Below, in pieces: positions 10,501 to 62,647 of a DNA stretch of 64,000 nt. Numbering within the stretch: position 1 is the stretch's first letter; the number at the start of each line of letters is the position of its first letter. Source of the DNA: Odontesthes bonariensis (taxonomy: Eukaryota > Chordata > Actinopteri > Atheriniformes > Atherinopsidae); NCBI RefSeq assembly GCF_027942865.1, contig NC_134515.1:14609227-14673226 (forward strand). Reading direction: 5' to 3'. Under the pieces are notes generated by a model, which did not search any database, was not told the origin of the DNA, and was given only the letters and a program-made list of their open reading frames with translations. The translations under genes and the position numbers were made by a program.

Positions 10501-11037
10501 GCAGCTGTTAATATTCCACAGACATTTGCAGTGAGGATAAATGGAGAGGTGACAGGGTAGAGTGCAGATGACCTGCAAATTCTTTTTCTGGTAGGTTGCA
10601 TTTGTGAGGAGATGTCAGACAAGCCTTGAACCAGGCAACATTTTGCAAGCTTAGCACAAAGAAATGTCCAGCAGTTAGATTGATCCAGTTTTTTTTTTTA
10701 ATGTTGTGTCAAAGGAACCACATGTTAACACTTTGCATGTTCACACCAAGTGCTAGGGTGCAAATTGTTTTTGGGATGGAGGAGTAGATGAAATGATTGG
10801 GCTTCTTGGCCCTATAAAGTGAGCTTTTTCAGAGGCACACTGCAAGCAGAAGGAGTGTATAGAAAAAATGGGTTAATCAAGCATGAACAGAGGTCAGTAA
10901 TGTTATACCTGCAAACTGGCATTTGGCTGACTACAACAAATGACTTGCTCGTATCTTAGAGGTCCAGAAGAAGGGCTTAAATTTGGATTTGTTATAACTA
11001 AGGACTCTGTGATTTCAGGCTTGCAGTAGGTGCACCA

Positions 11038-11629
11038 CAGCCTGGCGACGCCATCCTACGTACTTCCGCCCAAAGATTTTGGCTCCGCACATAGTCTGGC
11101 CAAATCCCCCTACCTCGGTTCGCTCAGTGTTTTGCCAATCAGCAAACAGTTGTGAGTGGTGACGCAGAACTCACGCGCGGAGTCCATTGTAGTCCATATA
11201 ATTGTAGTTCAACCGCAGCGGAAATAAACATGGCGACGGAAGAACGCTAGAAGCAATCCATGAAGTTGTCTCAACCCTGGAGATCATTACACAATTAAAA
11301 CAAGAGCAAGAGGAATGCCTCGTCAATTTTGTTAGTGGCAAGGATGTCGTAGCTCTCCTTCCAACTGGCTTTGGGAAAAGTTTGATTTATCAAATGGTAC
11401 CGGTATAATGAAAGCGGATGTGGGAAGCGTGATTCGTGAGCTAGAGCCTCGCGAGAGTAAGCATGAACCTCGGCGCATAACCAACGTCATTTCTAAACAT
11501 TACTGATTGGTTAAGGGAACTCCAATGAATTTAAGTTGCTGAGTAAGGTCCCACCCTCCATGGAAACGGATTCCTCTTGGGGTTTTCCAGACTGTTTGAC
11601 GGAGTCAACAGTCGGCTTTCGCCCAGGCT
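11038..11629 (+). mobile_element. Inverted-repeat transposon carrying a RecQ-type helicase fragment
   Basis: The direct repeat AGGTGCACCA (9-10 bp) lies at 11028-11037 and 11630-11639. Between the copies, the left end CAGCCTGGCGACGCC and the right end, read inverted as AGCCTGGGCGAAAGCC, form imperfect TIRs. The interior encodes on the plus strand (about 11231-11407) a start-like ATGGCGACGGAAGA and, after a frame break, a frame with LKQEQEECL and the Walker A segment VALLPTGFGKSLIYQ, ending at a stop just after QMVPV. This is the N-terminal part of a RecQ-like helicase only. The 9-10-bp duplication suits a MULE-type element, but the superfamily is not proven. It is GC-richer than its surroundings. 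Confidence 0.7.
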
Positions 11630-13600
11630 AGGTGCACCATGTCCGAGGGCATAAACTGCAAAGTCTGAATGACATAATTTGATAAACAGTAAATAAAAGA
11701 AGGCGACGTGTCCCTCAGGTCTACAGTCAATTTTTATACAGCAGGCAGAATGAAAAAACTATTAACAATATATGGGTATCTTTATCTTTATGTTGTTGCC
11801 ATTAAAGGAGAGAGTGATAATGCGGAGAAAGAATAACAGAGCTCACTACAATATCAGTAACGACTCTGTCACAATCATGAAGACCCCTCTTGAAAAGTGT
11901 TACAGAAGGCTTTGACATATGTCTGACATGCCTTTTGAAGAAGTCTGTTAGTTTTTCTTTCATTGCCTCTCTCGTTTCTACATGTTTTTTTAAATGTCAA
12001 AGTTTGATGCATGTTCCTAAAAGAATCAAGGCAATAAAGACAAAGACTGCAGGGTAATCCAATTCTCATTCGCTATGATCATAGCTAGGAATTGGTCAAA
12101 TTAGCATCACATAGCTGTGGTGTAATTTACTCTGATATTGCACTCAAACCACCTGATAGTGCAGAGATTTCATGCTCCCATTCTTTAAGGTTTATTTTGA
12201 ACTTGAAATCTCGAGAAAGCTTAATTTTACAGTTAATGGAGGAAAACTGACTCAAATTTTCATTAAAGTTGCAGAATGATTTTGTAATCCAAATATTGTT
12301 TAAGACGGATAACTCCAAATTTGTTCTCCCTTTCTTTCCATCTGCCAGTCACTCAACCGTCTGTCTGTCAGTCTCACATGTATGATTGAAATAAGTAATC
12401 AAGGTTGTCAGTCTGCTCAGTAAAGCCATTAACAGAAAAGGGATTAAGTGGAGCTGTGCTTTATGTGCTGAAGAGAATAAGTGTTAAATCAATAGGAAAA
12501 TAAGGTATTATTTCTCTCATTTACAACTCCATTGTGCGACTTGGGTTGCACAGCTTGTACTGGCAGCCCTGAAGAGGCAAAGCTTGTTTCTTTGTTGGGT
12601 CTACAAGCAGTCACGGAAAAGTGTGGCTTTACATGCTAGAAAAGTGTCAGAATATATATAATTCAAAATTAAGCATCCCCTCATGACAAAGCATATGTGC
12701 AAGGGCTGAGATCAAGAGAGGTCCTATGTTTTGTTTTCCTAGATTAAGCTTGTTATACCTAAAGATGGCGAGGACCTTTTGGAGAGTCTGCAATGTTGTA
12801 CCACCATGTTACCACAATTGCCTGGATTGGACAAACCAATCTTCCTCCTCTTAGAGACATTTTGCATTTTTTGCATGTATAGTGGTCACAGGCTGAAGAA
12901 TTGGAAGAAATATTCAGTTGGTTGCAATCTGCAACATTACCTCTAGATGCCACTATATCCACTATATCCTGTGAATATTTATTTTTACCCAGGCTAGCTG
13001 GTTTTGTGCAGATTATAATTCACAGTGACGACCTGACAAAGAAGCACATGAAGAGGGGGGGGTGGGGGTAGAGATTTAGGATTAAGTAAAATGTCCTGTT
13101 TGTAATATGTATGCACGATGGGCTGAGTAACAAAAGGATTTTGAGAGAGAGAGTGTGAGAGAGAGAGATAAGGACAAGGGCAACAAGGCCTTGACTGTGA
13201 CCAATTGAATCAACAGCTTCTGTCCTCTGGCGAGGACGCACTTGCTCTGCTCAAGCCTAATACCACAGACATGCTGTCACACATGCACATTTTTGTCTGC
13301 CCCCCCTTGCCCCCCTCATTGCTTTTTACTCCCATCCTCCCTCTCTCTGTCTATCTGTGTCCCTTTGTGACTTTTTCATATTTGCTTCGTTACCCAGCGG
13401 ATTCACTGCATTAACATAGCCTGAAGGATGACCACTTAGAGGGAGAAAGAGCAAGGGATTGCACACAGAAACAACAATCGTTTCTCCAGTATATGCAAAC
13501 AAAAAGAAAATTAAAAAAATAACTTCAGCACACATCCTTTTTCCCCGGGCTTGTTCTCATCTGAAGTCGAGGCAGAGAGCACGCGACTCCCAGATTCGTT

Positions 13601-21400: not shown

Positions 21401-24400
21401 AACACAAATGATGCTTTAAAAGCTAATATTTCATGATGAAGGATTAGTGTCTTTTGAATCATTTGAACACGTTGCTTTCTTTCTTGAAATTATTCAGTAT
21501 ACACGTGTTTTAACAAAAAATGTTTCCCCATCCTGTTCCATCAAATCAAATCAAATTGATTTGTATAGCACATTTCATGTACAAAACAATTCAAAGTGCT
21601 TTACATAAAATAAAAGCATTGCAGCAGGGAGTGTAAGAAGCATACATACATACAAGCAAAAATACATAAAAGAATATAAAGAGAAACAAATAAAATAATT
21701 TAAATGAATTTAAAAACAAGCAACCATCAAGATAAGTTCAAAGATAGCGTGCAGATTTCATGCATAGACACATGAGAACAGAAATGTTTTTAACCTGAAT
21801 TTAAAAATGTCTACATTTGGTGAAAGTTTACTGTCCACTGGCAGTTTGTTCCACTTGTTTGCAGCATAACAGCTAAATGCTGCTTCTCCATGTTTAGTCT
21901 GGACTCTGGACTGGACCAGCTGACCTGAGTCCTTGGATCTAAGAGCTCTGCTGGCTTTATATTCTCTGAACATATCACAGATGTATTTTGGGCCTAAACC
22001 GTTCTGGGATTTGTAAACCATCAGCAGGCTTTTAAAATCTATTCTGTGACTGACTGGAAGCCAGTGTAAAGATTTTAAAACTGGTGTGATGTGTTCAGAT
22101 CTCTTTGTCCTGGTTAAAACTCTAACAGCAGCGTTCTGGATGAGCTGCAGATGTTTAATGCTCCAGATGTGATAAAGTCCAGTTAAAAGAGCATTACAGT
22201 AATCGAGTCTACTGGAGATGAATGCATGGATGAGTTTCTCCTGGTCTTTTTTGGAGAGAAAACCTTTAACCTTTACCATGGCTCATGTGAAACTCTGTTG
22301 TGCTTTATTTATTGTTCTGTGGTTTGTCACCATCTCTGCACAATTGAATTTTGCTCAAAATTACATCTCTGTAAGGAATGGCTCACAAGAGCTTTTCTTG
22401 AGGGTAATTTTTTGTTGAATGACTCCACAGAGCCGCAGACAGGAGTCCTCTCACCTCAGAGGAAAAGTGCAGTCTCAAGTTGTGACCCTGATATTTTGTT
22501 TTTGAGGTCTTGCATAGTGTGATCTTAAAGTACGTGAATCCGGTTAGCTATGAAATGTGAAATTCAAACTGAGTTTCACAGTAATACATTTTGTCTCTAT
22601 TGGCAGCCGTCACCTTGTGTAACAGCTCCATTGTGGGGAGATTTGACGGCTTATAATTATGTAAAACAGCTCTGTGTTCATGGCTGTTGAAGATGCATGT
22701 GAGATTTAGGCTTGACGACAGACATTTGGTTCTTATATCCATCCATCCATCCATCCATTATCTTCCGCTTGTCCGGGGGTCGGGTCGCGGGGGCAGCAGC
22801 TTGAGCAGAGAAACCCAGACGTCCCTGTCCCCGGCCACTTCCTCCAGCTCTTCTGGGGGGACCCCGAGGCGTTCCCAGGCCAGACGAGAAACATAGTCTC
22901 TCCAACGTGTCCTGGGTCTTCCCCGGGGCCTCCTTGACTACGCCAACAGAACCACATCGTCCGCAAAAAGCAGAGACCCGATTCTGAGGTCGCCAAAACG
23001 GACCCCCTCAACGCCCTGGCTGCACCTAGAAATTCTGTCCATAAAAATTATGAACAGAATCGGTGACAAAGGGCAGCCCTGACGGAGTCCAACCCTCACA
23101 GGAAACATGTCCGACTTACTGCCGGCAATGCGGACCAAACTCTGACACCGGTCATACAGAGACCGAACAGCCCAAATCAAAGAGTCCGGCACTCCATACT
23201 CCCGGAGCACCCCCCACAAGAGTCACCAAGGGACACGGTCGAACGCCTTCTCCAAGTCCACAAAACACATGTAGAACTCTCATGCACCCTACAGGCTCCT
23301 GCCGAGGGTATAGAGCTGGTCCACTGTTACAGGGCTAGGACCTCCTGAATCCGAGATTCGATTATCCGGCGGATCCTCCTCTCCAGTACCCCAGAATAGA
23401 CCTTACCAGGGAGGCTGAGGAGTGTGATCCCCCTATAGTTGGAACACACCCTCCGGTCCCCCTTTTAAAAGAGGGGGACCACCATCCCAATCTGCCAGTC
23501 CAGAGGCACTGCCCCCGATGTCCACGCAATGTTGCAGAGGCGTGTCAACCAAGACAGCCCTACAACATCCAGAGCCTTGAGGAACTCAGAACGGACCTCA
23601 TCCACCCCCGGGGCCTTGCCACCGAGGAGTTTTTTGACCACCTCGGCAACCTCGGCCCCAGAAATGGGAGGCCCCACGTACGAGCTCCCCAACCCTGCTT
23701 CCTCATCGGAAGGCGTGTCGGTAGGATTGAGGAGGCCCTCGAAGTATTCCCCCCACTGACTCACGACGTTCCTAGTTGAGGTCAGCAGAGCCCCGCCCTC
23801 ACCATACACGGTGTTGACGGTGCACCGCTTTCCCCCCCTGAGCCGCCGGATGGTGGACCAGAAACTTCTCGAGGCCTTCCGGAAATCATTCTCCATGGCC
23901 TCCCCGAACTCCTCCCAAGCCCGGGTTTTTGCCTCAGCAACCGCCGAGGCCGCGTTCCGCTTGGCCTGTCGGTACCCATCAGCAGCTTCCAGAGTCCCAC
24001 TGGCCAAAAAGGCCCGATAGGACTCCTTCTTCAGCTTGACGGCTTCCCTCACCACTGGTGTCCACCAGCGGGTTCGGGGGTTGCCGCCACGACAGGCACC
24101 GACCACCTTACGGCCACAGCTCCGGTCGGCCGCCTCAACAATGGAGGCACGGAACATGGCCCATTCAGGCTCAATGTCCCCCACCTCCCCCGGGACATGG
24201 TTGAAGCTCTGCCGGAGGTGGGAGTTGAAACTCCTCCTTACAGGGGATTCTGCCAGCCGTTCCCAACAGACCCTCACAATACGTTTGGGGCTGCCAGGTC
24301 TGACCGGCTTCCTCCCCCACCAGCGGAGCCAACTCACCACCAGGTGGTGATCAGTTGACAGCTCCGCCCCTCTCTTCACCCGAGTGTCCAGGACATGCGG

Positions 24401-27400
24401 CCGCAAGTCCGACGATACAACCACAAAGTTGATCATCGAGCTGCGGCCTAGGGTGTCCTGGTGCCAAGTGCACATATGGACACCCTTATGCCTGAACATG
24501 GTGTTCGTTATGGACAGTCCGTGATGAGCACAGAAGTCCAATAACAAAACACCACTCTGATTCAGATCGGGGGGGCCGTTCCTCCCAATCACGCCCCTCC
24601 AGGTCTCACTGTCATTGACCACGTGAGCATTGAAGTCCCCCAGCAGGACGAGGGAGTCTCCTGGAGGAGCACTCTCTAGTGCCTCCTCCAGGGACTCCAA
24701 AAAGGGTGGGTACTCTGAACTGCTGTTTGGTGCATAAGCACAAACAACAGTCAGGACACGTCCCCCCACCCTAAGGGGGAGGGAGGCTACCCTCTCGTCC
24801 ACCGGGGTAAACCCCAATGTACAGGCGCACAGCCGGGGGGCAATAAGTATGCCCACACCTGCTCTACGCCTCTCACTGCAGGCAACTCCAGAGTGGAAGA
24901 GAGAGCAAAGGTCTCCGCCTTCGGCTGCCACCTAGCTCACAAGGCACCAGACCCCCTTCGCCCCTCCCACGGGTGGTGAGCCTGTCGGAAGGGGGACCTG
25001 TGTAGTTTCTTCGGGCTGTGCCCGACCGAGCCCCACGGGCACAGACCCAGCCACTAGGCGCTCGCCGGCGGGCCCCACCCCCGGGCATGGCTCCAGGGGG
25101 AGGGTACACGGTGTCCATGGTTCTTCTAAACAGTTTAATAAAGACACTTATAGCATCAGTAATGTCAGTATTTTTCCTTTGAAAGAAGTGCAAAGGATGA
25201 TACCCAAGGCTTTTTTTTTTCTGTGTAGAATATCATTTCACACTTCTTGAAACCAGTTTTGGCAAACGTTTGAATTAATCGGTACCAATTGTTGAGCTTA
25301 TTGATAGATTCTAACTCATGATTGATGGTTATAGACAGATGGTTCCTCTATTCACCTGTAAAGTGTTTTTGAAAGCTCTTGCCCTTTTTTTAACAATGTC
25401 CATTGACAACACCTCTGATGGTTCTGTGTGACATTTGGTGCATCAGGTTAGATTAACTGATCTTAAAGATGAGGAAAGACACCAGTGAGTTGATTTGTTT
25501 TGCTTTGAACAGCCACTTTTGGTGGGAGAAAAGCACTGTTAAAAGGTTTTGTCTTCTCTGCTAATATCTTCCATGAATATATCCCTGTTATATCCTTTGT
25601 CAGTGATTTGACAAATTGTGCATTCCCATGACTGGAGGCATATGTTGGTTGATCATCTTCCACATAAAACCTTTGTAGCTCCAAAACATATACCATTGTT
25701 GAAGTGATATTTTTATTTCAAATTGACTGGAAAATTATATATACACAGCCATCTGTGCCAGTGTAGACTCATTAAAAAACCTTTGAAGAGTGTATATATT
25801 GTCCTTTTAAGCTAACTGTCATTAAAACTTCCTAAAAAGAATAAATTGTTAGGGATATAGAATTGCATGCTGTGGCTGTGATAATCAATCGGACGGGGAG
25901 GGCTCCTTCCTGTAAGATAACTGACATAAATCAATATTCCGTATTTGTGTGGCAGCAGAAAAACCATTTGAAATAGTTTGTGTAATCCAGTAGGGAATCT
26001 GTGTGTGTTAGCTCAGATGAAAAGAAGCAGACATAAACACAGGAAATTGATGCTTCTCATGCTTATTTCAAGGCTGCATGAGTGTTGACATTTTGAAGTT
26101 TGGCCAAATCTGAACATTGTGCTTATTGTGTTTCACATATTTCTCAGGCATTTTGTTTTTGTAATATTAAGAGACTGAATGTTTGATGGGATTTTTTCAT
26201 CAGACTTGTAATCTGAGAAGAAGTGTTGTTGTGATGTAAATAAGAGGAAGTAAAGAGGGAATTTCTGAAGTGAAGTTATGAGGGCTACAATTTTCAAACT
26301 AAATACTTAAAAATATGGACAGTTTATTGTCTTTTACTGTCTCCTGTTTTTTTTTGTTTTTTTTTAAATATGAGCTAAGTATATTATTTGCATGTTTTCA
26401 TTTTATTTTATTAAAAGGGTTTTCTTATAATGGCATATTTAGGGTTATCCTGGTAGCGTAGTTTAGGGGACCTTAAAGAGCACCATATAATTACAGTGAC
26501 CCAGTTTATATCCGGCCTGGGATGACATCCACTATCCCTGCATTTCCTGTCACTCCCAACCAGATAACATCAGCTGAAAGAGGTAAACTTCAGATTAAAG
26601 AAATAAAAAAATAAAAAAGGTCACGTCACTGTACACAAGTTTAAATGTGCCACTGGAATGTCTAAAGCCACACTGTGTGCTTCCCAATTTTTTCATTGTT
26701 GAAGATTTTTCTTGCCCAGGCAGGAGCCTGCTTAACTTCAGGAATGTCCAAGGACTATTTCTGTTTCATAATGATACTGGACAGAGATATTCAAACTGTC
26801 CTCAGCTGCAGCACTGAGACATCTTATCCACAGTAATGTGAGCATCGTCATTTATTTCAGTGGTTGAGTGAGAGAGATCTGGGTGTTTATATAGAGCCGT
26901 GTGAATCTGCAGCGACGGTATGCTGGCCAGCGCACAGAGACACACTTGCACACCACGAGGCAGACAAACAAGTATTCACATGGATTTAAAAAAAAAAAAA
27001 AAAACAACAACAATCACTTCAAAAGAATGTTAAATGATTCCTGCTTCTGATTCACATAAATGACTCATATAAATAATAATGTGTATAATGTGTAAGAAGG
27101 CAAACACTTCCTTTACTTTGCATGTATCACTGCTGCCAGGAGACCCAAACCAACATCTCTCTTAACTTTTTATCTTAAGGTCACAGGCATTTAGAATTCT
27201 GCTATTTCCAAGCTGCCCTTTGCCAAGAATCAGAAGCCCAAATATACGGACTCCTTTCACTGATGTTTTTAAAGAGCTGATGAAGCAGGTGTTCAATTGT
27301 CTTCAGGAAAACCTTTAATTTAGAATTTATGTGAGCTGTGATCTAAATTTATTTACTCTATATTATGTGCTACTGAGCTACCTGCGAGCATCCTCATCAT

Positions 27401-42400: not shown

Positions 42401-45400
42401 CATATGTGGAAAGTTACCATTGATACAGACGTATGCAGGGAAATTGTGGAGAAACTTAGCTTTTAAGGTGCTGCCTTTTCCCAGGACTTAAGTGATTATT
42501 TCAGCAGAACAATGCTAGATCTGTATTATGTGGTGTAATTTACACAGTGCGGGTATCCTACTGAAAAAGTATGGCACACACCACAGACTGCTGAGCTGTT
42601 AGATCTGATCTAGAGTATGGACACAAATTTCTCTAACAAAACTGCAACAGCGAGTATTTCCTCAATTCTCAAGCAAATGAGAACTGTAACTAAAAGGATG
42701 GATGCAGTAACACAATGGTAAAATTGCCTCCGTTTCAACTTTTTTTGAGCTTGTTGCTGGCATCAGATTTCAAACTTGTTTATCTATTTTTTTTTTACAG
42801 TGAAGTTGGTCAGTTAAAATGATTTCTTTTGTTTTTGTTTCTGTTAAATTTTCTGTAAATAAGATTTGTTTTTGAAAAAAGATCATGGTTGTAATTTGCC
42901 AGTACTATGAACTAAAGACTACATGATTTTAAGAATACTGGTCAAATGCTTTTGTGTTCTGTATACTAAGTATCGTTCTGCTGGAGTTAATGGATCCTTG
43001 CTCTCTTTGTGTCAACAGGAGGCTGCAGCGTGTCATGGAGGAGCTGGTGTTTACAGAGAGGGAGTATGTGCGCTCACTGGGTTACATCCTGACTCACTAC
43101 CTTCCCCTGATGGACAGGCTGGACATTCCCCAAGACCTCAGGGGAAAGCGAGGAGTCATCTTTGGCAACCTGGAGAAGCTTTATGACTTCCACAGCCACT
43201 ATTTCCTTCCAGAGCTGGAAGCCTGTGAGAGGGATCCTGCCATGATAGCCCGCTGCTTTCTCAGACATGTGAGGATTCACATTTACATTTGAACTTTTAT
43301 GTTTGAAAATTCATAGAGATTAATTATTTGATTTGACGTTCTGCAGAGTGAGAGTTTTGGCCTGTATGCTTTGTACAGCAAGAACAAACCTCAGTCAGAT
43401 GCTCTTATTCTGCACCGGCGCCATGACATCTTCAAGGTGAGTTTATATTTGTCTTATCTGTCTGTCAAGTGAAACATATGAGACGAAGAGTTCTAACACT
43501 GCAAATGTGCCAAGGCATATTTTTTTTTACCACTAATATTTCATGGATACTTTGCAAAAGCTTTATTTTCATTTCAAATGTCTGAAAAACTATTTAAACA
43601 CAATAAGAACAATGAAATTTGTGGCTGTTCTCATTAAAAACATATGTCAGACTGAATTTAGATACTCAAATAGAAAAACAAAACTGCAAACTATATTGTA
43701 CATCAGAAATGGCTGCCCTTTTTACATTACATTTATTTAACTAGTGTTGCATGCTATTTTGCTGCAGGACATCAGTTTCTTTAAAATCCTTCACATCTTG
43801 ACTGCACTTCATGACAAAGCTCTGAGCAGTTTGCGCAAGTTTTGTTGGTACACACACCAAAGGGTTTTTAAGTTTTCACAGAGAAGTTTTAAGTTTATGT
43901 GTCATTTGAATCATCTTAGCTTTACAGTCCCACTTTGTTTCACCCAACAGAAGAAGCAGCAGGAGCTGGGAGACATGATGGACCTGTCATCCTACCTGCT
44001 GAGGCCCATCCAGAGGATCAGCAAGTACAGCCTCCTGCTGCAGGACATGCTTTCCTTAGCCAGATCATACAGGCCAAAGGATGTGAATCAGGATACAGCG
44101 TCTGCATCTGGCCTTAATACATATGTGCCTGATCTGACGAGCAATGAGAGGGAGAAGGCTGAGATCCAGGCTGCTGCGGACCTGGTTCGATTTCAGATGC
44201 GTCATGGCAATGATTTGCTCACCATGGACGCCATCCAAGACTGTGATGTAAGATACTAAAATTGTGGATGACTTGTATTTGAGTTACAATAGTTGGTATC
44301 AAGCCCCTTCTTTTATTTTCTGCACCTCCCTCCTCTGCCAGGTTAATTTGAAAGAGCAGGGGCAGCTGATCCGCCAGGATGAATTCACAGTTTTCTTCAG
44401 GAAGAAGAAATGTGTCCGCCGCATCTTTCTCTTTGAAGATTTAATTATCTTCAGCAAGCCCAAGAGGACGGATGTTGGAAATGATGTTTATGTCTACAAG
44501 CAGTCATTTAAGGTCTGTTTTAGAGTCTGTAATAGAGTTCTGTTCTGTTTAGAGCAAAGGCACTTTTCAAAGTCGCACCTCAGAATGGGAAAGGTTTTCT
44601 AGTGAAGCCAAAACACAGCAATCTGTACAGATTTCCTGAAAGGTAAGGGGAGAAGGTCCTTGTTGGTCTATCTCTGAAGTCTAAATTCTTGGTTTACAAA
44701 TGCTTCAAGATTACAGCTATAAAGTTTGAAAAAAAAAACACTCCTCTGTTGCGGTGGGGTAGATGAACTGGCTGGGCATGCATGTTAGTGCATGTGAGTC
44801 CCTTACATGCAGCTTAGTACAGGCTAACATTTACATTTTCCTCCACTAAATAAGCCATATTCTTCAGCTGAGAGAAGTAAGACTCGGGTAAATCTTTTTC
44901 TGGCTTTTTTCTGAGATGGAGAGAGCTTTGAGCAGACTTAAGGGCTCCAACTCTCAGTGTAGTTTTAAGGTCCTATATTGCAGCTTTACATATTGAACAC
45001 AAAAAATAAAGAATAAAAAAAATGCATTTAAGATCCGACTATTGAAACGGATTGCGTGCAGGGCTTCCTAATATATTTTACTTGCTACGTGTGATTATTT
45101 CTGTCAGTGTAATTTTAGGTTTATCATTGTGTTTTCCAGACAAATGACATCGGAATGACCCACAACTCTGGTGTGAGTGGTCTGTGCTTTGAGATCTGGT
45201 TCCGCAGGAGGAAAAGTGAGGACACCTACACTCTGAAGGCTGCCAGCATGGAGGTGAAGAAAGCCTGGACCACTGACCTGGAAAGATTACTGTGGGATCA
45301 GGCCGCTCACAGTAGAGGTTGTCACAACAACAACTTACACTGTATATATATATATATATATATATATATTTAAGCATATACCTAGACAATTTGCAACAAG

Positions 45401-50270: not shown

Positions 50271-53200
50271 ATGAGTGAAGGTGAGCAGGAAAACTTTTCT
50301 GTCACATATTGTGGTACTGGTGTTTTCATTCTGCTGCTTATGAATACGGCTTCTCTTTGGGTTACTGCACACAAACTATTTTGAATTATCGAGTATCTAA
50401 TGAGAGTCATAACTGAAATGTCATGTGCAGGAATGGTGGGTGACATGAGATATCTCAGATCTAGAAAACCGAATAACATTGACCCTGCAGTGAGGAATGT
50501 TTGCTGGTGATTTCTTGTGATTTATCATCTGCGATGGAAATGTGAGCAGGGGGGGTTCAGTTTGAATGAAGTCGTTTGACGTCAGATTTTCATGGTTTTA
50601 GTTATACATGTTTTTTATCTGATGTGCCACCAAGCTGTGTTTTCATTCTATCCACATACAGTCTTGGACATTGAGCGCTGTGATCTGAATATTAAGAGCA
50701 ACAGCAGCAGCCATCACACAGAGCTGTATGGAGAGGAGCGTTTGATTGTCAGAAGGGGACAGCCCTTCAGTGTTATCTTACACCTGTCACCGGGCAGCAA
50801 AGAGTTCAGATTGGGTGAAACAAGCTTCACATTCATTGTTGAAACTGGTACTACTCACTCATTACATTTTCCTTTGATTTTATGTGCCAGAAGATGTATT
50901 TGGATGCAGTGTATGCATGCATTTGAAACATTCCCACATGGATTTGTGTCATTCACCTCTGTCTCTAGGTCCATTACCCCGAAAAGAATCTGACACAAAG
51001 GTTTCCTTCAGTCCACAAGACTCCACAGTGGACACTGAGTGGAGTGCATCTGCCACTAATGATCCCACTGGAAACACCTTAACTGTCTCTATCAGTTCCT
51101 CCCCCAATTCCCCCATTGGGCTGTATTCTTTGACTTTAGACCAGTTGGGTCAGAAGACCAGCTTAGGACAATTCACTCTGCTCTTCAATGCTTGGTGCCC
51201 ACGTGAGTCCATAAAACTGTCTTCTGTGATTTACAATGAGTTCAATTAAATTGGCACATTTCACTCCTCTTAAAGTGTGCTGTGTTTCATCTCTGACTTG
51301 TACTGTGTTACCATATACAGTATATACAAAGGAAATAGTTTGAAATGGTCTGAAGGTTTTGGTGTTTTCTCTGTAACAACTAACAGAAGATGCTGTTTTC
51401 CTGCGGAGTGATTTGAAGAGACAGGAGTATGTTTTAGCACAATATGGGCAGATTTACAGAGGAACATATAAAAGGATCAAAGGGAAACCCTGGAACTTTG
51501 GACAGGTATATAAGTATATATAATATATAAGGTATATATTACTTTTTGTCTGTTCGTCACTAATTCTATGTTGAGGCGGTTAATTATCAAATATAATTTT
51601 AGATCTTGAATTTACATAAACCACTTGTGACCTTATTCAAACATTGTTATTCAGCGAGTGGAAAATGTGATCCTCACTTTCTGCTGCACTGATCTTAGGT
51701 CTAATACTCTGTTTTTCTGCAGTTTGAACCAGGAATATTGGATATCTGTCTGAAGATTCTGGATGACAACCCCAAATTTGTTTCTGATGCCGATAAGGAC
51801 ATTTCTGGCAGGAGAAATCCGATCTATGTGACCAGAGTGCTGAGTGCCATGGTAGTACTAATTCATTCATTCATTTTCCTTCTCTGCTTGATCCTGTTGA
51901 GAAGCTGCCTTAATGTGAGAGAAAGGGTACACCCTGGACAGGTTCATCACAGGGCCAGCTCAAATACAAATGATACAAAGCAGTGCCCTAACATGCACCA
52001 ATAATAACACAAAAAAGTCTGGTAAGAAGAAAAAGATTAAGAATTAACTTTATAATGATTATTTACCTAATTGAGACACTAAGGACAGAAAGTAACAGGC
52101 AGTTATAAGGAAAAAAGAGGAAAAATAGAAAGTTTTAATGGGTCGAATTTCAACTTTAGATATGTAGCGATACAAAATTCAACTGCAATTTCATAAATAA
52201 AGTTATGACTAATAGAAATACGTCAATTTAAAATCTACAGAAAGACTTCCGATACAAATAAGCTTTTGAAAGTGACATAAAGAGGAAACTCACTTAGCAT
52301 GCTGCACAACCAAAGCACTTTGTCCCCTTTTGTGTTGAGATGTGAGGTGGAAGCATATAGAAGGTTTGTAAAATGACTGCATTTTCATTATATTCTAGAG
52401 TCTAACAACTGAAATCTTAAAATAAAACCTAAAACTAAGTGTATAGGGTTATAAAAAGGAGACAGAGAAACCAAGGATGCTATCCACGTAAGCCATGAAT
52501 AGCCATCTTTTAACTAAAGATTACCATGGTGCACCAGAAAAGTCTTCTTGCTTTTCTGTATTCAGAGTTTTTGTCACTCTGTAGGACAGCTTCTCTCCTT
52601 CTTTGGGAACTTTCTCTTTCACCCCTGGCAACATTTGTGATAGAAATGAGCAGAAACAAAAGCAGGACTGCTATCAAAATAACAAAACAGCCATGAGCAC
52701 TCTATTACTGCTGCTTGTCAAAAAATAGCCAGAAAGAGAGATTTTTACTGAGTGTTCAAGATTCAGAAGAAGTCATTTTACAATATATTAGACATATTTT
52801 TAGACAATATGATCAAATGCTATATGTAGGTTATGGGAGGTATAGTGCTGAGAATATACTCACAAAGCCAATATCATTAGCATGTTGCAATGTTGTTTTT
52901 TTTCCTTGGTTCTTTGGTTAATGGACTATTCTATGTCTTTCAAAGATAACTTGAACTTAGTTTTCCTTTCACATTGTATTTCTATCTATATGGATTTTTG
53001 AACCTTTTTATATCAACACACAACAGAAACCGCAATAAAGATTAGAAAGTGCTGGCTAATCAGATCACAAACAGAGTTTCACTTCTAGAGTCCTGAAACA
53101 GAAGTTACTGAAACTCCCTCAAACCACTCCCCCAGTCTGCCCTAATTGGTCAGCTCCAGTGTCCTTGACACCCACCGCTGAGCTCTGTTTTTGGAGGCAT

Positions 53201-61097: not shown

Positions 61098-62647
61098 CTA
61101 GTAGAATCCAGCATCACTGATGTCCACCCTCAGGTCTGCTTCACCAGAGTCTGACATGGAGGCACTGACAATAATAAAGTCACCCTCATAAGAAATGCTG
61201 GAGCCGTCAGCCTTTCCCCTTACAAAGCTATTTTCACTTCCATTGTACATCGTACGATAAAGATCGTGGTCACAGTTGCTTCCTTTGTCAAAGATCCCCA
61301 CAGCACACCAGTTGGAGTAAAGGATTCGGTCATAAGGCACAGAGAACATGACAGCCATGATGTGGCTGTAGTCATTCAAGTCAGCGTTGAAAAAATCATA
61401 TGTGAAGACGCCAACAGCTCCCGTGGCAGCGCCAGTGGTCTTGTTGAACAGCGTTTTGACAGCCGAGCAGGGACCAACCATGGATGGCAAAGGGGTTTCA
61501 CAGTAACCACTCTCAGTAAACACCCTGAAAATAGAGACCAAACAAATCAGATTGGTCTAAAGAAAGTGTTTTACAGAGAAGCATCTTGTAGGTTGTGCAG
61601 TAATATCAACTGAGGATAAAAAATTATTTGGACACTTGTGTATTCTACCTGCACTGTACATGAGAGTTCATTCTGCTACAAGAGCTTTATTGCAGATGGT
61701 AATTCATTCACAATCAGTATCCTGTTTCCAAAGTGCTGAATGTGGTCAAAGCTATGGTTTAAGATGCCTTTTAATGAAACTGACAAAGTTGTCATTTGTG
61801 ACAACTTTATCCAAAAGTTTCAATGAACTCTCGCAGACCTGTAGTGTAGTCATTGTAACATGGAAAATGGGTAGTTTTTGACTAACATACACTGATGTGG
61901 ACTTCAATTAAACTGCATGATGATATTAACATGTCAGGAGGATTGGAGGCATTCAGGATTCTCCAGTAAAATTAAGTTTAAACAATGGTCAATATTCTTC
62001 TTGAATTCAACAATGATTAACAAGCAGTAACAAACAGTTTACTGAAGTAGCTACGTGGCTTAGAAATAAGATGTGTGTGACCTTCTGCAAGTAGCTGGTG
62101 TGTGTTTAGTGAATGTGCCCAACTTGATAAATGGGCTGGCTTGTTTTACTTGCCATGACGTCAGAGTGGTTCTTTGTGTTCTCTTAAGCTACAGCTTGTT
62201 GAGCTTTCTGTTGCAAAGTATGTTAAAGCCGTATACATCAAGGCCAAATATCTGTTAATTGTATTGTTGGAGTACTACATTGATCAAGGCAGATTTTTAC
62301 ATTTGTAAGCTTAACTGAGACTAATAATCGCTGCTTGATGAAAGATTGCATCAACTACGATGCTTGATCCTCTCAACACAGGGGGGAAACCAGGAAATAG
62401 TCAGACCCTGACTAAAATACAGAATAACAAATACTCAGTGATCCACTTTCTGCTTTTGTTTGTCATACATGTCACTGCATGCTATGGGCATCACAGAAGT
62501 ATTTCTACTTAAGTTACGCTTGAATGTACTGCATCTTTAATTCTTTAAGACTGTTAGAGATAGAAAAGCAACACGTCACCTTGGGTTGGCCAGAGTGTAG
62601 CAGTTTGAGTTATTGGTAACCTTAACAGAGCAGTGGCGATGAGGCAT
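61098..62647 (-). CDS. Actinoporin-fold (actinoporin-like) protein
   Basis: Two exons on the minus strand: 62647-62580 (inferred Met, 22 codons plus 2 nt) and 61524-61098, joined through good GT-AG sites (AAG|gtgacg; ttttcag|GG) in phase; about 164 residues, stop TAG. The fold is recognised from TESGYC near the exon 2 start, TGAVGVFTYD, and the segment SVPYD..LYSNW, which in sea-anemone actinoporins forms the aromatic phosphocholine-binding cluster. Those toxins insert an N-terminal amphipathic helix into sphingomyelin membranes. Here the second Trp of the NWW motif is Cys, and an RGK stands where actinoporins have RGD. The C-terminal beta-strand (ADLRVDI) is intact. Vertebrate members exist in fish; their function is poorly known, and this sequence does not show pore formation. 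Open frames upstream suggest further 5' exons. Confidence 0.8.

Follow-up and report, generated by a model that had tools for sequence, protein, structure and literature searches.

The 593-bp element described here lies in a 64,000-nucleotide stretch of the genome of the pejerrey Odontesthes bonariensis (C15:14609227-14673226 of a 945-Mb genome; this whole stretch is hereafter the window). It is very probably a nonautonomous miniature derivative, formed by one internal deletion and a further 4-bp deletion, of a transposon of about 8.1 kb that codes for a RecQ-like superfamily-2 helicase on the + strand and for a DDE-type transposase on the - strand. The initial annotation had offered two origins for the element, capture of a host exon or internal deletion of a helicase-coding transposon. 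The latter is strongly supported by long copies that share the termini and the 9-bp duplications and that carry both genes.

The limits of the element and of its parts are given in Table 1. An inverted-repeat element of 592 bp with a 9-10-bp target duplication had been annotated at this site, where the element is indeed found. Its length is 593 bp, however, and the duplication, although real, is exactly 9 bp long, the tenth matching base being the final one of the element itself. In the family, the terminus TAGCCTGG...CCAGGCTA starts with T in 27/28 copies and ends with A in all 28, the window copy bearing C instead of T at its first base. The two ends match exactly over 8 bp, too short for a generic inverted-repeat scan of the region, which required at least 12 bp and found none. 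The GC-rich character noticed earlier agrees with a CpG observed/expected ratio of 0.91 in the element vs 0.34 in the window; since the element is CpG-rich, its scattered copies could serve as small CpG islands.

Table 1. Features of the miniature element, in window coordinates.
Feature	Position	Strand	Basis
Nonautonomous (MITE-like) transposon copy, 593 bp	11038..11630	+ (oriented as helicase gene)	28/28 fetched copies with same length and ends
Left 9-bp target site duplication, GGTGCACCA	11029..11037	.	Sequence, copy comparison
Right 9-bp target site duplication, GGTGCACCA	11631..11639	.	Sequence, copy comparison
Left terminal inverted repeat, family TAGCCTGG, window copy CAGCCTGG	11038..11045	+	Copy comparison
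Right terminal inverted repeat, CCAGGCTA on + strand	11623..11630	-	Copy comparison
5' segment, derived from left end of the ~8-kb transposon with helicase gene	11038..11402	+	95.7-96.8% identity, 5/5 long-copy places
Helicase exon 1 remnant, start codon to Walker A (GFGKS), ended by deletion junction	11230..11402	+	Long-copy comparison
3' segment, derived from right end of the same long transposon	11403..11630	-	94.8-97.8% identity, 4/5 long-copy places

The search for relatives that the initial annotation called for was productive. A whole-genome DNA search gave 991 first-look candidates, and the best 40 of these, which were scored and include the window copy, are all near full length and 98-100% identical. 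Two rounds, of 8 and 20 loci, provided 28 copies from this set, again with the window copy among them. All 28 are 593 bp long, and the 9-bp duplication is exact in 25 of them, the other 3 showing one mismatch in 9. With both ends and the length common to 28/28 fetched copies, the family is more than chance. These 28 copies, drawn from the best-scoring 40, diverge from their majority sequence by 0.66% on average, and the window copy is the most diverged (9 differences). From its sequences, the family looks as though a single miniature element had recently multiplied in a burst; because the best 40 were picked by their similarity to the window copy, the remainder of the family may be older. Like a miniature inverted-repeat transposable element (MITE), the 593-bp element is short, high-copy and without coding capacity, and its ends are common to a longer coding family. 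It differs from MITEs made by internal deletion in that its exact inverted repeat is short, at 8 bp, and that a coding remnant is visible.

Longer relatives sharing the termini were found as well, at about 8 kb, and it is their comparison with the element that reveals its origin. The element consists of the left 365 bp of the long transposon, up to 11402, joined to its right 228 bp. Its first 368 bases match five places in the genome at 95.7-96.8% identity, in each case from the terminus onward. The junction falls within helicase exon 1, directly after Walker A and the residues ...IYQMVP, and exon 1 of the long copies continues past this point via LVLERLGRPNTIAIVV to the DEAH motif. The helicase therefore appears to stop because the deletion junction lies within the exon, and the earlier view of a complete first exon has to give way to that of a truncated one. 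The counterpart of the 3' segment in the long copy lies upstream of the modelled start codon of the transposase and may act as its promoter or leader.

In the 10-kb stretches taken around the five matching long-copy places, the long elements measure 8143 bp (L040), 8361 bp (L041 and L042) and 8114 bp (L043). These four, which are all the long copies having both ends, carry TAGCCTGG ends with exact 9-bp duplications and represent three independent insertions; L044 contains large insertions, and its right end is not within the stretch taken. Over 10 kb, L041 and L042 show 99.98% identity; they share the same 9-bp duplication and lie in inverted orientation, facing away from each other (C23:30512861-30536417). 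Because this identity extends into the flanks and the orientations are opposed, they either represent one insertion within an inverted duplication of very recent date or result from the assembly. Long copies with the same termini as the miniature element carry a whole helicase gene and one that is transposase-like. In a genome-wide search, 1.5 kb from the interior of L040 match the five long-copy places and four distant ones; on this basis, long copies are few and miniature copies many. Synonymous and nonsynonymous counts between the long copies were too few for an argument about selection; one 'stop' in the helicase codon comparison was taken as the natural stop codon, and the transposase comparison with L041, which loses the frame in the final exon, was excluded.

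The helicase gene of the long copies has open exons on the + strand, with a spliced model of 577 residues; DEAD and Helicase_C are the only Pfam domains above cut-off. Two features of RecQ, the pair of RecA-like domains and the zinc-binding cysteines, are present. No Pfam match above cut-off was obtained for the RQC winged helix or for HRDC, and the fold comparison, made on the relative P0031, hardly covered the C-terminal part. The O. bonariensis helicase record P0028 shares 98% identity with the transposon helicase across 90% of its length. Many fish and lancelet proteins named RecS, Q1, RecQ-like, BLM or WRN-like, among them P0028 and P0031-P0047, are close relatives of this helicase; judging by their sequences, public helicase records under these names may be misnamed and may include transposon genes. 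More diverged helicase families were examined in eight stretches; in protein, the long exon that ends their helicase gene is 48.6-54.5% identical. Around the helicase gene, TAGCCTGG-like ends with 9-bp duplications occur in L047, L048, L051 and L052, the last two of which may be copies of one family; no such pair of ends and duplication was found in L045, L046, L049 and L050.

Opposite the helicase, on the - strand of the long copies, lies a DUF6589 gene. A structure model of its product predicts a DDE-like fold, the best fold alignments being to the transposases of the P element, Hermes and ISCth4 and to integrase cores; Foldseek with this model gave no significant PDB match. The modelled fold thus points to the DUF6589 protein as the probable transposase of the long element. 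The nuclease of AcademX transposons is an XPG nuclease. No Pfam match to XPG was found at E<=1 in nine open reading frames (ORFs) of L040, including all five of at least 150 residues, a set covering smaller ORFs and introns only partly. A profile search for XPG-linked DUF6589 proteins, with 7996 candidates scored, left three proteins, none with XPG, and DUF6589 was not found in the literature searched.

Regarding classification, helicase-coding DNA transposons named AcademH were reportedly described by Kojima in 2020, in Mob DNA 11:15, from animals and fungi by the title. According to excerpts of PMC10045372, target duplications are of 9 or 10 bp in AcademH and of 3 or 4 bp in AcademX, a difference that seems tied to the helicase vs the nuclease. 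AcademH and KolobokH are named as sources of DEAD and Helicase_C domains in PMC10799480. KolobokH is presented in an extract of PMC9587614 as a DNA transposon with a RecQ helicase reported only from fungi, the duplications of Kolobok being TTAA. The novelty that had been attributed to a DNA transposon with a RecQ helicase is thus lost, such elements being already in print as far as these extracts go (PMC10045372, PMC9587614). The long copies resemble KolobokH, as outlined there, in being DNA transposons that encode a RecQ-like helicase, but this assignment is ruled out by the target duplication, which here is of mixed sequence and 9 bp long instead of the 4-bp TTAA; a further difference is that KolobokH is reported only from fungi. 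With AcademH as described, they share a helicase with DEAD and Helicase_C domains, and the 9-bp duplications of both miniature and long copies fall within its 9 or 10 bp. By duplication length and helicase, the helicase and DUF6589 group is best filed as AcademH-like, and it most likely represents a new family of a transposon kind already known by its description, one marked by a striking burst of miniature copies.

An alternative classification, which we regard as unlikely, would make the fish and lancelet transposons with helicase and DUF6589 genes a separate superfamily near P, hAT and MULE, in which the RecQ helicase was acquired independently and has become a working part of the transposition machine, both proteins having moved the miniature burst in trans. 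It would be defined by its TAGCCTGG ends and strict 9-bp duplications. The best fold alignments, to integrase cores as well as to the transposases of the P element, Hermes and ISCth4, speak in its favor, as do the TAG...CTA termini combined with 9-bp duplications. AcademH, helicase-coding and with 9 or 10-bp duplications in the excerpts of PMC10045372, nevertheless fits the data without special pleading, and Academ itself is listed among 17 DDE/D superfamilies in a passage of PMC10294476.

The initial annotation had also described a helicase N-terminus running from the ATG to Walker A. It is present in the sequence, but its frame is broken near the ATG. The 4 bp directly after MATEE (deletion at 11244/11245) are missing from all 28 copies when compared with L040-L043; because of this deletion the ATG is followed by a stop after six codons in 27/28 copies, and the helicase frame is lost at once, the one remaining copy continuing out of frame. 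The peptide LKQEQEECLVNFVSGKDVVALLPTGFGKSLIYQMVP does exist in one frame of the element; it matches Pfam DEAD with E 1.3e-5 and 25.4 bits, narrowly missing the curated threshold of 26, and among PDB entries E. coli RecQ matches it best (E 9.8e-4). It could be proposed that the miniature element still acts through this helicase stub, for instance as a dominant-negative peptide, given that the start codon context and Walker A are kept and that the CpG ratio is high. This is highly improbable in view of the shared frameshift and of the longest ATG-started ORF, which reaches 54 residues on either strand of any of the 28 copies.

The origin of the helicase sequence in a transposon, and not in a host gene, is further supported by comparison with the host-like loci. 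A genome search with TIGR00614, a model of the RecQ family, gave 40 matches, all of them short of the curated cut-off, with 35 of 1583 candidates scored. It yielded RecQ loci that are host-like in our own reading, along with many helicases split across two long exons; 30 loci were fetched. Read in the long-copy frame, the fragment shows 93-95% protein identity to the five long-copy places, vs 50-56% over only 16-22 residues to the host-like loci L038, L010 and L029, and no protein match to L011 and L019. Walker A reads GFGK or GYGK in the transposon families, and GRGK, GAGK or gapped GG-GK in the host-like loci, so that the GFGK form was rightly taken as a clue to a transposon-borne family.

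Pack-MULEs are short elements with gene-like sequence and 9-bp duplications. Capture of exon 1 from a RecQ gene of the host by such a Mutator-type element would suit the small size, the 9-bp duplication and the RecQ-like fragment, but the gene-like sequence of the 593-bp element comes from the long transposon and not from a host gene: fragment and flanks match long helicase transposons up to the termini at 94.8-97.8% DNA identity, the host-like loci among the 30 (L010, L011, L019, L029 and L038) do not match the element as DNA at E<=1e-3 and are 22.9-45.2% identical to the helicase in protein, across 41-249 residues, and the junction lies inside the exon instead of at a splice site. In the genome DNA search all 40 scored candidates are miniature copies, a set that would leave out any host gene matching less well. 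Host exon capture is hence ruled out by identity and context, refuted as far as tested, and scarcely credible as an origin.

Elsewhere in the window, a remnant resembling a long interspersed nuclear element occupies 23465-24931 (-), with an endonuclease/reverse-transcriptase match (Exo_endo_phos_2, E 5.4e-9); it perhaps includes the ORF at 21758-22282 (-), for which no Pfam match was found. An actinoporin-like ORF of 152 residues at 61098-61556 (-) matches Pfam Anemone_cytotox (E 1.7e-15), here in a fish genome, and the ORFs at 42933-44259 (+) and 50580-51249 (+), with RhoGEF and Transglut_N matches, look like host-gene exons.

From a mechanistic point of view, an internal deletion would have joined the left 365 bp of the ~8.1-kb transposon to its right 228 bp. 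The DUF6589 transposase would then recognise and bind the ends common to long and miniature copies, excise the miniature element and insert it at a 9-bp staggered cut, with the helicase as a probable accessory motor. Having lost the helicase frame, the miniature element would have been moved in trans, and its numbers would have risen in a recent burst. Of this scheme, the common ends, the duplications and the genes carried by the long copies are shown, whereas we infer that the DUF6589 protein is the transposase, that it recognises the ends in trans and that the helicase assists it.

The pejerrey genome thus brings together, in a single vertebrate, a small number of long copies whose helicase and transposase-like exons are open and a young family of miniature copies that has their ends. 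With this matched pair, the need for a transposon-borne RecQ helicase in transposition becomes testable. If these transposons did form a superfamily of their own, the miniature burst in the pejerrey would be a natural reporter of a helicase-using transposition machine.
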